Shown here: positions 7,586 through 10,757 of the stretch, piece by piece
Position numbering within the stretch: the stretch's first letter is position 1
Layout of the letters: every line of letters starts with the position of its first letter
From: an uncultured Alphaproteobacteria bacterium
Lineage (GTDB): Bacteria > Pseudomonadota > Alphaproteobacteria > HIMB59 > GCA-002718135
Length of the DNA stretch: 36,708 nucleotides
Assembly (NCBI GenBank): GCA_902610845.1
Contig: CACLXJ010000008.1
Location: forward strand, 1-36,708
Direction: 5' to 3'
The notes under the pieces: model-generated
Database searches by the model: none
Told to the model about the DNA's origin: nothing
The model's input: the letters and a program-made list of their open reading frames with translations, nothing else
Position numbers and translations under genes: made by a program

Positions 7586-9016
7586 CTAAACGTCGTAATA
7601 TAATTTAAATTCATGTGGATGAGGTCTAATATTAATAGGATCAACCTCACTGTCTTTTTTGTAGCTAATATAAGTTTCAATAACATCTTTAGTGAATACA
7701 TCACCCTCTAATAAAAATGCATGATCTTTTTCAAGAGCTTCAAGAGACTCTGCTAATGATCCAGGTGTGGATTGAATTTTAGATAAAACTTCATCACTTG
7801 CAGCGTAAAGATTTATATCTGTTGGATCACCGGGATCAATCTTATTTTTTATTCCATCTAATCCTGCCATTAACATAGCTGAAAATGCTAAGTATGGGTT
7901 TGCACTAGGATCAGGACATCTAAATTCCATTCTTTTTGCTTTAGGGCTTTGAGAATAAGCAGGAATCCTTACTGATGCAGTTCTATTTCTTTGAGAGTAA
8001 ACAATGTTCACTGGAGCTTCAAAGCCTGGTACCAGTCTTTTATAAGAATTGGTAGTAGGGGCACAAAAAGCTAAAAGAGCAGGAGCATGTTTAAGTATAC
8101 CTCCAATATAATTTAGAGCTAAATCACTTAGGTTGGCATAATTGCCTTCTTTGTACATAAGCGTATCACCATCTTTCCAAACACTTTGATGCACGTGCAT
8201 ACCTGAGCCATTATCTTCAAATAAAGGTTTAGGCATAAATGTAGCAGTCATTCCATGTTGTCTAGCAACATTTTTAACAACATACTTATATTTCATCATA
8301 TCATCAGCCATCTTTAGTAAGGGCGAAAATTCTAAATCAATTTCACATTGCCCACCTGTTGCAACTTCATGATGATGTGCCTCAACAGTTAAACCAATGT
8401 CTTGCATTGTCATTACCATTTCTGTTCTAACATCTTGAAGTGTATCTACTGGTGGAAGAGGAAAGTAACCCTCTTTATGTCTTGGTTTATGACCTAAGTT
8501 TGGATTTTCATCTGTTCCACTATTCCAAGTACCCTCAACTGAATCAACTTCATGAAAGGCAAAGTTAGAACCCGAGTCAAACTGAACATTATTGAAAACA
8601 AAAAATTCTGCTTCTGGACCAAAAAAAGCAGTATCTCCAATTCCAGAAGATTTTAAATATGCTTCTGCTTTTTTAGCAATGTTTCTTGGATCTCTTGAGT
8701 AATCTACTAAAGTTACTGGATCTTTAATATTACAATGAATAGCAATTGTCTTTTCAGAAAAGAATGGGTCGATGTAAGCTGTGCTTGCATCTGGAATCAC
8801 TATCATGTCACTGTCTTGAATTTCTTGAAACCCTCTCACTGATGATCCATCAAAACCAAGTCCGTCTGAAAAAGTGTCTTCATCTAAAAATTTAATTGGA
8901 ATTGTAAAATGTTGTGTTGTGCCTGGTATATCGGTAAAGCGTATATCCGCCATTTTAATATCCATATCTTTAATTTCAGACATTAAATCTTTTGGAGTCG
9001 AGCTTTTTAATTTCAT
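7586..9016 (-). CDS. glnA: Glutamine synthetase type I
   Basis: This 476-residue enzyme makes glutamine from glutamate and ammonia with ATP, the main entry of ammonia into metabolism. Type I landmarks are present: [10 protein letters not shown] at about 54-63, [11 protein letters not shown] at 131-141, the [14 protein letters not shown] metal and ATP region at 214-227, [10 protein letters not shown] at 269-278, and [10 protein letters not shown] at 343-352. Tyr404 in INLYA sits where the adenylylated Tyr lies in the E. coli enzyme. The start is supported by AGGAGAT, 5 bases upstream of the ATG. The 200-base leader carries two glutamine aptamers and a possible terminator hairpin, so the gene is probably repressed by its own product at the RNA level. 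A strong terminator follows. Confidence 0.96.
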
Positions 9017-9035
9017 ATCTATCTCCTAACTTCAA

Positions 9036-9065
9036 CAAAAAGGTATGCTTTCCAGCTATACCTGG
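9036..9065 (-). promoter_or_regulatory. Candidate expression platform of the glnA leader (competing hairpins)
   Basis: On the minus strand AGGTAT (9063-9058) can pair with ATACCT (9046-9041). An inner GCT/AGC pair and a GGAA loop extend this to 9 bp with one bulged A. The helix ends in a run of five T, giving a terminator-like hairpin about 20 bases before the glnA ATG. CCAG (9065-9062) can instead pair with CTGG (9055-9052), which would break that hairpin. This fits a riboswitch choice between two folds, but the stems are modest. Confidence 0.45.
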
Positions 9066-9102
9066 TTAAATCATGCTCTAGTTATGAAATCCGCTTTTAA
9101 TG

Positions 9103-9155
9103 CGCGTTCCTTCAGCAAGTGGCCTACTTCCGACCTAAGGAATAGGTTGAACGAT
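9103..9155 (-). ncRNA. Glutamine riboswitch aptamer 2 (glnA RNA motif), gene-proximal
   Basis: Read on the minus strand, the outer stem CGTTC (9153-9149) pairs with GAACG (9109-9105). An inner hairpin (ACCTA with TAGGT) leads into the conserved core TCGGAAGTAGG, and GAAG precedes the closing strand. This order of paired and conserved parts is the glnA RNA motif, which binds L-glutamine. The third stem is weaker than in the upstream copy, needing a G-U pair. About 16 bases separate the two aptamers. Confidence 0.85.
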
Positions 9156-9167
9156 TTATAACTTTTG

Positions 9168-9220
9168 CATGCGTTCCTTCGGCACAATGCCTACTTCCGA
9201 CTCTTTAAGAGTTGAACGAT
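9168..9220 (-). ncRNA. Glutamine riboswitch aptamer 1 (glnA RNA motif), promoter-proximal
   Basis: On the minus strand the outer stem CGTTC (9218-9214) pairs with GAACG (9176-9172). Hairpin ACTC-TTAAA-GAGT follows, then the conserved core TCGGAAGTAGG and a hairpin GGCA-TTG-TGCC, and the motif closes with GAAGGAACG. This is a full match to the glnA RNA motif layout. It begins about 41 bases after the glnB stop and lies in tandem with a second copy ahead of glnA. Confidence 0.88.
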
Positions 9221-9226
9221 TATGAG

Positions 9227-9255
9227 ATAATTACTTGGTTTTTAGTAAAAGTAAA
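9227..9255 (-). promoter_or_regulatory. Possible glnA promoter between glnB and the riboswitches
   Basis: On the minus strand TTTACT (9255-9250) lies 17 bases from AATTAT (9232-9227). That spacing fits a housekeeping promoter and would start transcription near 9220, at the first base of the first aptamer. Both boxes are imperfect in an AT-rich background. Read-through from glnB is the alternative. Confidence 0.3.
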
Positions 9256-9261
9256 GAAAAA

Positions 9262-10757
<1,496 letters not shown>

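Follow-up and report, generated by a model that had tools for sequence, protein, structure and literature searches.

Tandem glutamine aptamers in the glnA leader of an uncultured alphaproteobacterium and a candidate switching helix between them

The window, that is, the whole 36,708-nt stretch analyzed here (contig CACLXJ010000008.1 of assembly GCA_902610845.1), carries on its minus strand a glnB gene, encoding PII, followed by a leader and by glnA, encoding a type I glutamine synthetase (GS). By scanning the whole window with cmscan (4227 Rfam families, Rfam 15, gathering threshold), we identified two matches to the glutamine riboswitch RF01739 in this leader, at 9220-9168 (64.0 bits, E-value 4.4e-12) and 9155-9101 (57.9 bits, E-value 2.2e-10) of the minus strand. 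Both are full-length (1-53/53) and lie above the RF01739 gathering score of 35; apart from this pair, the only Rfam matches in the window were tRNAs. The region reads as follows, from glnB to glnA:

9262 to 9603, minus strand: glnB (PII; PF00543)
9264 to 9280, minus strand: terminator-like hairpin at the glnB end (one found by the scan, against 0.7 expected by chance)
9228 to 9255, minus strand: candidate promoter, TTTACT - 16 nt - TAATTA, read from the sequence
9168 to 9220, minus strand: glutamine aptamer 1, RF01739, with P1 strands at 9218-9214 and 9176-9172
9154 to 9171, minus strand: linker L, CATGCAAAAGTTATAAAT, the 18 nt between the P1 strands, overlapping the flanks of both Rfam matches; its CATGC and AGTTAT are complementary to E
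9101 to 9155, minus strand: glutamine aptamer 2, RF01739, with P1 strands at 9153-9149 and 9109-9105
9071 to 9089, minus strand: element E, TTTCATAACTAGAGCATGA; its ATAACT (9085-9080) and GCATG (9076-9072) are complementary to L
9037 to 9063, minus strand: hairpin AGGTATAGC/GCATACCT, then a T run; terminator-like by eye and variable between lineages
9023 to 9027, minus strand: probable ribosome-binding site (RBS) of glnA, AGGAG, ahead of the start ATG at 9016-9014
7586 to 9016, minus strand: glnA, type I GS (PF00120/PF03951)

A preliminary description of this DNA had reported two copies of the glnA RNA motif in the glnA leader. The covariance model bears this out, and the tandem glutamine riboswitch is confirmed as genuine; chance is ruled out by the E-values and by the presence of six matches, in three pairs, within the same incomplete genome. 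The site had been placed correctly, except that its lower bound, 9103, leaves out two bases, as the aptamers span 9220-9101. Both copies fit the Rfam consensus structure, with helices P1-P3 and the conserved core, and both contain all the sequence features that had been named, among them the CGTTC/GAACG outer stem (P1) and the core TCGGAAGTAGG and GAAGGAACG. The P2 hairpins are unlike (ACTC..GAGT and ACCTA..TAGGT), yet both pair. The two Rfam matches are separated by 12 nt and the P1 strands (GAACG to CGTTC) by 18 nt, and the glnA start lies 88 nt past the second GAACG.

The candidate promoter was absent from the predictions of a promoter/terminator scan of the window, and its first hexamer reads TTTACT or TTTACA in 24 of the 24 glnA upstream regions displayed, the second, AT-rich hexamer being more variable. 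This conserved TTTAC(T/A) element and the hairpin at the glnB end suggest a separate glnA transcript, whose 5' end would lie near aptamer 1. The hairpin at 9063-9037 was likewise not among the predictions of the terminator scan. Between aptamer 2 and E, a further small hairpin (9104-9091, minus strand) reads CGC..GCG in the window and GGA..UCC in the leaders of two other genes described below (amt and CPgrasp); in folding models it may be part of a three-way junction with P1 and the helix between L and E (L:E).

We next consider how widely the arrangement occurs. The genome of origin had been taken for that of a streamlined alphaproteobacterium, which agrees with its small assembly (1.08 Mb in 57 contigs, 59% complete) and with the titles of similar loci, mostly 'uncultured Alphaproteobacteria'. 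A covariance model search of this assembly returned the six RF01739 matches mentioned above. The two pairs outside the window lie ahead of an ammonium transporter gene (amt; PF00909) and of a circularly permuted ATP-grasp gene (CP_ATPgrasp, here CPgrasp; PF14403/PF04174), with genes for Alpha-E (PF04168) and transglutaminase-like (PF01841/PF08379) proteins behind the ATP-grasp gene. Among 61 related genomes, RF01739 was present in 36/37 members of the genus, own genome included, with up to eight matches each, and in 0/24 genomes from a second family within the order. When genomes were drawn evenly across the class under stricter filters, 6 of 385 were positive, namely the genome of origin, G220 of the same genus (96% complete, eight matches) and four members of family f10, each with a single match; in a similarly filtered draw from the phylum, the genome of origin was the single positive among 398. 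Among the matches listed, tandem aptamers also occurred in single-cell genomes and metagenome-assembled genomes titled Alphaproteobacteria, SAR116, SAR86, SAR92 and other Gammaproteobacteria. At L059, L088, L099, L106, L113, L125 and L156, two successive ammonium transporter-like genes about 2 kb apart each have their own aptamer pair, and G220 likewise shows two aptamer pairs 2 kb apart.

A larger set of sites was collected with an exact sequence pattern that demands a doublet, which yielded at least 171 sites, 137 of them kept as distinct; the constancy of the core and of P1 in the collected rows is imposed by this pattern, and the frequency of singlets is not readable from the site count. 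Among the matches listed, the linker measures 17 or 18 nt in 93 of the 93 distinct doublets ahead of glnA (30), amt (38) and CPgrasp (25), and 6-9 or 22-25 nt in doublets ahead of other genes. Of at least 95 doublets with 17-18 nt linkers, 94 were aligned, one more having ended at a contig end. All 94 carry, among the matches listed, an E-type motif, (N)TA(A/G)C(T/G)A..GCATG, within 60 nt 3' of aptamer 2, and most columns of this motif are invariant or nearly so. The motif was found in none of the 32 multi-aptamer sites with other linkers among the matches listed (one more site was cut by a contig end). Nine sites of that list read as single; E occurs in two of them, both cut-off doublets, and was not found in the four true singlets L007, L040, L042 and L043. 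An amt doublet with an undetermined base, L129 (titled Chloroflexi), was read as a singlet and left out. Record titles of the 17-18 nt group, among the matches listed, are mostly Alphaproteobacteria, with two SAR116, some Pelagibacteraceae and one only 'Proteobacteria'; the linker of L154, a doublet from a record titled Rhodospirillaceae, measures 9 nt.

L and E are complementary throughout this group. When the duplex is anchored at GCATG and the best-pairing one among several registers is chosen, five pairs of an outer L:E helix are possible in 94/94 doublets, and an inner helix has six pairs in 87/94 (35/38 amt, 26/30 glnA, 25/25 CPgrasp and 1/1 unclassified, among the matches listed) and four or five pairs in the other seven. 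The internal loops between the two helices are mostly 2+2 in amt, 3+3 in glnA and 1+2 in CPgrasp leaders (2+2 in three of the latter). Of 1380 shuffled duplexes, derived from 23 distinct L/E pairs, 8 were as stable as the real ones. The inner helix falls out of register between gene families in the automatic alignment, where it pairs in 61.5% of cells, against 100% for the outer helix. The evidence for L:E would thus consist of complementarity and matched loop lengths more than of compensatory change, most positions being invariant. The aptamers themselves do show changes on both sides of their stems across the 94 doublets, among the matches listed; the count, which covered P2 and P3 of aptamer 1 and P2 of aptamer 2, gave 4/4, 3/3 and 4/5 pairs, respectively. 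This upholds the earlier remark that the inner hairpins differ and still pair.

The two aptamers seem, then, to flank one shared switching helix. Two other accounts of the doublet bear on this point. In the first, two independent riboswitches would act in series, each with its own platform, and the doublet would steepen the response through two checkpoints. A published review places the class here, counting 157 glutamine riboswitch doublets and 4 triplets and treating them as pseudo-cooperative, with multiple expression platforms (PMC9481103), and the account suits gammaproteobacterial leaders of a short glutamine synthetase (GSII), where the linkers are 22-25 nt long and a similar CCGTTAA-type hairpin follows each aptamer. 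In the window, however, the gap of 12 nt holds no expression platform, the linker containing neither a terminator nor a start site, so that a complete platform after each aptamer is not what we find, and the linker is conserved as the complement of E; for these leaders we regard independent action as quite unlikely. In the second account, the second aptamer would be dispensable or in decay, the doublet would have arisen incidentally as repeats expanded, and L and E would match through shared ancestry only. L and E do vary little, and ancestry could account for part of their match; short-linker tandem copies are, moreover, common in viral contigs. Against this, P2 of both aptamers and P3 of aptamer 1 are paired in at least 99% of cells in the 94 rows (among the matches listed), linker length is constant across three gene families and two SAR116-titled records, and loop sizes on the L and E sides differ together between glnA and amt. 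We consider redundancy very improbable.

We favor, at a little better than an even chance, the reading that the glnA leader forms a composite OFF switch responding to glutamine, which is built around a shared L:E helix and takes the place of the GlnD-PII-GlnE cascade. L would pair with E, 3' of aptamer 2, forming a helix directly below P1 of aptamer 1 that encloses aptamer 2, so that both aptamers would abut a single L:E helix. Glutamine binding to the aptamer inserts G23 at the base of P1, where it pairs with C60 (PMC11477058). Among the matches listed, a GG is found in the aptamer core and a C after GAACG in 190/190 aptamers of doublets with 17-18 nt linkers, and we infer that this C corresponds to C60, and the core G to G23, of the solved structure. 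Ren et al. (in 2015) reportedly saw a short helix below P1 melt upon glutamine binding. The G23-C60 insertion, this melting below P1 and an invariant C shared with L:E together suggest that L:E would be weakened by glutamine, and would be the switch itself. At low glutamine, L:E would stand and the glnA mRNA would be read. At high glutamine, each aptamer would bind its ligand and reorganize the base of its own P1; the invariant C, which next to aptamer 1 doubles as the first L:E pair, would be pulled into the ligand-bound P1, L:E would be weakened from one or both ends, possibly cooperatively, E would be released and expression would drop, either through masking of the start site or through the hairpin after E. 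The OFF sign is the one expected because glnA and amt are the targets. The steeper or more graded response suggested in the preliminary description would be a possible property of the doublet. The same L:E composite would also operate ahead of amt and of the CP_ATPgrasp/Alpha-E/transglutaminase operon.

In folding models, the window leader forms L:E once P1 is imposed on aptamer 1, on aptamer 2 or on both; with both imposed, the helix starts with the C that directly follows P1 of aptamer 1, and aptamer 2 lies inside it. The unconstrained fold of the window leader contains no L:E and instead swaps P1 strands between the aptamers, and RNAalifold on the 94-row alignment likewise predicts the swap and not L:E. 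This swap is the basis of a different proposal, a translational ON switch in which, without glutamine, the P1 strands are exchanged and E masks the start, and, with glutamine, L takes E and the start is freed. Besides the preference of RNAalifold, this proposal can draw on the activating glutamine riboswitch of cyanobacterial gifB (PMC6316151) and on models of 38 amt doublets among the matches listed, in 35 of which the two-aptamer fold leaves the RBS more open than the swapped fold does (and in 0 of which less open). Opening is, however, seen in 0/26 glnA models (the opposite in one; 26 of the 30 glnA doublets were modeled) and in 4/24 CPgrasp models (24 of 25 modeled), the swap is predicted for any tandem of this kind because the P1 strands are identical between copies, and glnA and amt would come under positive feedback, an odd arrangement in physiological terms. 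We therefore view an ON switch as unlikely. Once the glnA models extend over a few codons of the gene, E sits on the start region in both states, with a median of 1.0 L:E pair, against 10.6 for amt and 10.5 for CPgrasp. Taken together, the models leave the direction of control, the output step and cooperativity undecided.

As regards the output step of the favored OFF switch, masking of the RBS by E was dropped as a proven output and is kept as a possible one, E pairing with its start regions no better than with many unrelated ones. Values as low as the real one were reached with shuffled start regions in 97/700 cases for amt1, 128/1500 for glnA, 8/400 for amt2, 23/400 for other amt, and 126/700 and 587/900 for CPgrasp groups 1 and 2; the complementarity of E to the start is absent in one CPgrasp group. 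With 59 start regions of the same loci as the null, which may itself contain some glnA/amt regions, the corresponding fractions were 0.12-0.14 for glnA and 0.07-0.63 for amt. It may alternatively be proposed that transcription is the regulated step and translation is not, the hairpin after E acting as an intrinsic terminator that depends on E. The window (9063-9037) does have a hairpin with a T run, as do relatives including L031, L084 and L112; in L080, L082, L048, L144 and 17 amt1 leaders displayed, the hairpin lacks a clear T run, and the one in the window, missing from the terminator-scan predictions as noted above, is formed in the unconstrained and two-aptamer folds alike. A purely transcriptional switch is, in our opinion, somewhat unlikely. 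In CPgrasp leaders (L003, L008, L009 and others), an upstream open reading frame (ORF) of about 16-21 codons can be seen by eye between E and the CP_ATPgrasp start, which it sometimes overlaps (TGATG); this layout suggests translational coupling.

In Proteobacteria, the classical sensor of glutamine is GlnD. It is regulated by glutamine and modifies PII at Tyr51 (PMC4285133). By profile searches, the GlnD domain PF08335 was found in none of the 37 genomes of the genus and in 24/24 of the other family of the order, in which GlnD also passes the NCBIfam cut-off (TIGR01693, 565 vs 519 bits). Extending the search across the genus gave 0/102, six of these genomes being at least 90% complete. GlnE (PF03710) follows the same split, with 0/37 against 22/24, and in G220 (96% complete) neither the GlnD domain nor GlnE was found. 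In the genus, RNA sensing appears to have replaced protein sensing, on the strength of a correlation across one split, and we infer that the absence of GlnD and the switch are causally linked. The suggestion of the preliminary description, that feedback on ammonia assimilation operates at the RNA level, fits these absences. We tentatively go further, at somewhat less than an even chance, and propose that glutamine sensing passed from protein to RNA: with GlnD and GlnE absent, glnA, amt and the CP_ATPgrasp operon would stand behind two aptamers pulling on one helix, the RNA counterpart of a cooperative allosteric sensor.

GlnD absence was rejected as a rule for riboswitch carriers, 7/25 riboswitch-bearing genomes having the GlnD domain: three of the four single-aptamer f10 genomes, one SAR116 and three gammaproteobacterial genomes. 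GlnE is also missing from the f10 genomes (0/4), so its absence alone is weak evidence. A sigma54/NtrC route was also discarded: in 61 genomes there was no sigma54 over the cut-off (one weak match, 19.6 vs 22.8 bits) and no NtrC over the cut-off. In the NtrC search, response regulators of about 448 aa, perhaps NtrX, scored 170-216 bits in many members of the genus.

PII is itself retained. One copy is found in 29/37 genus genomes and the protein is present in 23/24 genomes of the other family, twice in 18, and its gene lies directly upstream of glnA in 30/30 distinct glnA doublets among the matches listed. The T-loop of the window PII is rewritten, a 17-residue stretch standing in place of the other family's GHTELYRGAEYVVDFL, and the canonical ELYRGAE occurs in 2/2 glnB-type sequences of the other family and in 0/31 distinct other sequences captured (the second PII of the other family lies outside the captured set). 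We had considered a loss of the PII modification site and withdrew it, as a tyrosine is kept at the aligned Tyr51 place in 31/31 distinct PII sequences not of the other family, the window included. In the window GS, the canonical adenylylation context NLYDLPPEE reads NLYAASDEV; genus-type loci have NLYAAS or NIYEAP and two other-family loci NLYDLPPEE or NLYDLPAEE, the tyrosine remaining throughout. The rewritten T-loop and the changed GS context may lend weaker support to a replacement of the sensor.

The tandem arrangement itself is already known. An earlier report, which gives the distribution as 'Cyanobacteria, marine', describes glnA RNAs in tandem and in the neighborhood of genes for PII, GS, glutamate synthase and Amt (PMC2864571), and the locus described here shares with that Glutamine-I riboswitch/glnA RNA motif the aptamer, the nitrogen-gene leader and the tandem copies. 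The earlier statement that the motif is best known from cyanobacteria was fair and agrees with a review (PMC6316151), which calls the riboswitch restricted to cyanobacteria and knows its GS, PII and Amt associations only from environmental sequences of uncultured strains; the GS/Amt-associated forms now gain a host lineage. Beyond RF01739 in general, the host here is alphaproteobacterial, and the conserved linker and 3' element E extend past the 53-nt Rfam model. Among known systems, the tandem glycine riboswitch likewise joins two similar aptamers by a short linker and ends in one platform downstream (PMC9481103), but belongs to another ligand class, and the coupling proposed here would go through a shared helix. 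The cyanobacterial gifB riboswitch is of the same aptamer family and also acts on GS control (PMC6316151); there a GS inhibitor is switched on, whereas here glnA itself lies behind the switch and the expected sign is OFF. The GlnD-PII-GlnE cascade also senses glutamine and bears on GS (PMC4285133), but it is protein-based, and GlnD and GlnE were not found in the genus and are present in the other family. In SAR11 IIIa/LD12, glnB is kept in some genomes and glnD was not found; no glutamine riboswitch is mentioned in the accessible part of that account (PMC10030771), whereas a tandem switch lies between glnB and glnA here. A description of the linker-E helix or of GlnD replacement was not found in open-access titles and abstract beginnings; the primary papers of 2011 and 2018, which lie outside this set, may contain one. 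As far as could be checked, three points are new: the complementarity between linker and E, the set of genes behind the aptamers in alphaproteobacteria, and the clean exchange of riboswitch and GlnD.

Two families of one order, one with GlnD and without the riboswitch and the other with the riboswitch and without GlnD in the genomes searched, amount to a natural experiment on a sensor swap in small genomes. The putative L:E helix provides a concrete and mutable hypothesis of how two neighboring glutamine aptamers might feed a single output, an idea that bears on the frequent pairing of glutamine aptamers.

Outside the 17-18 nt group, the aptamers occur in several other contexts. Marine phages also carry glutamine riboswitches (PMC9004378). 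We looked for the composite 17-18 nt unit in viruses and found none among the matches listed, at least 120 IMG/VR stretches (L188-L307) with tandem aptamers by pattern, in which linkers are 6-11 nt long, one being 25 nt, and two sites are single. In small gammaproteobacterial genomes, aptamers precede a short glutamine synthetase (L073, L077, L111, L121, L138, L141, L152 and L160); that of L077, of 336 aa, passes the PF00120 cut-off. The GlnD domain was found in 0/8 gammaproteobacterial genomes, of unstated completeness, with GSII behind the switch, including, by record name, those of L104/L152 and L054/L160.

Several small ORFs follow tandem aptamers. At L065 (7563-7745, plus strand), a doublet with a 6-nt linker precedes a 60-aa protein resembling DUF4278 (PF14105, 22.8 bits, below the 25.3 cut-off), and similar starts were seen by eye at L110, L128 and L083; the records are titled Porticoccaceae, SAR92 or SAR86. 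DUF4278 is a domain of the cyanobacterial GS inactivating factor IF17, and the 60-aa protein is a possible GS inhibitor. At L090 (5517-5681, plus strand), an ORF of 54 aa that ends in FFPYYL and has no Pfam match directly follows the aptamers, with similar cases by eye at L089, L109 and L158; by eye, the RBS of the L090 ORF lies in a short hairpin with the aptamer 3' flank. Doublets at L054, L104 and L157 lie ahead of an ORF that is TonB-receptor-like by eye. Finally, L057, L066 and L114 (SAR86 or Pseudomonadota titles) contain triple aptamers with linkers of 7 and 24 nt, and the ORF behind those of L057 matches Gcw_chp (PF09694).
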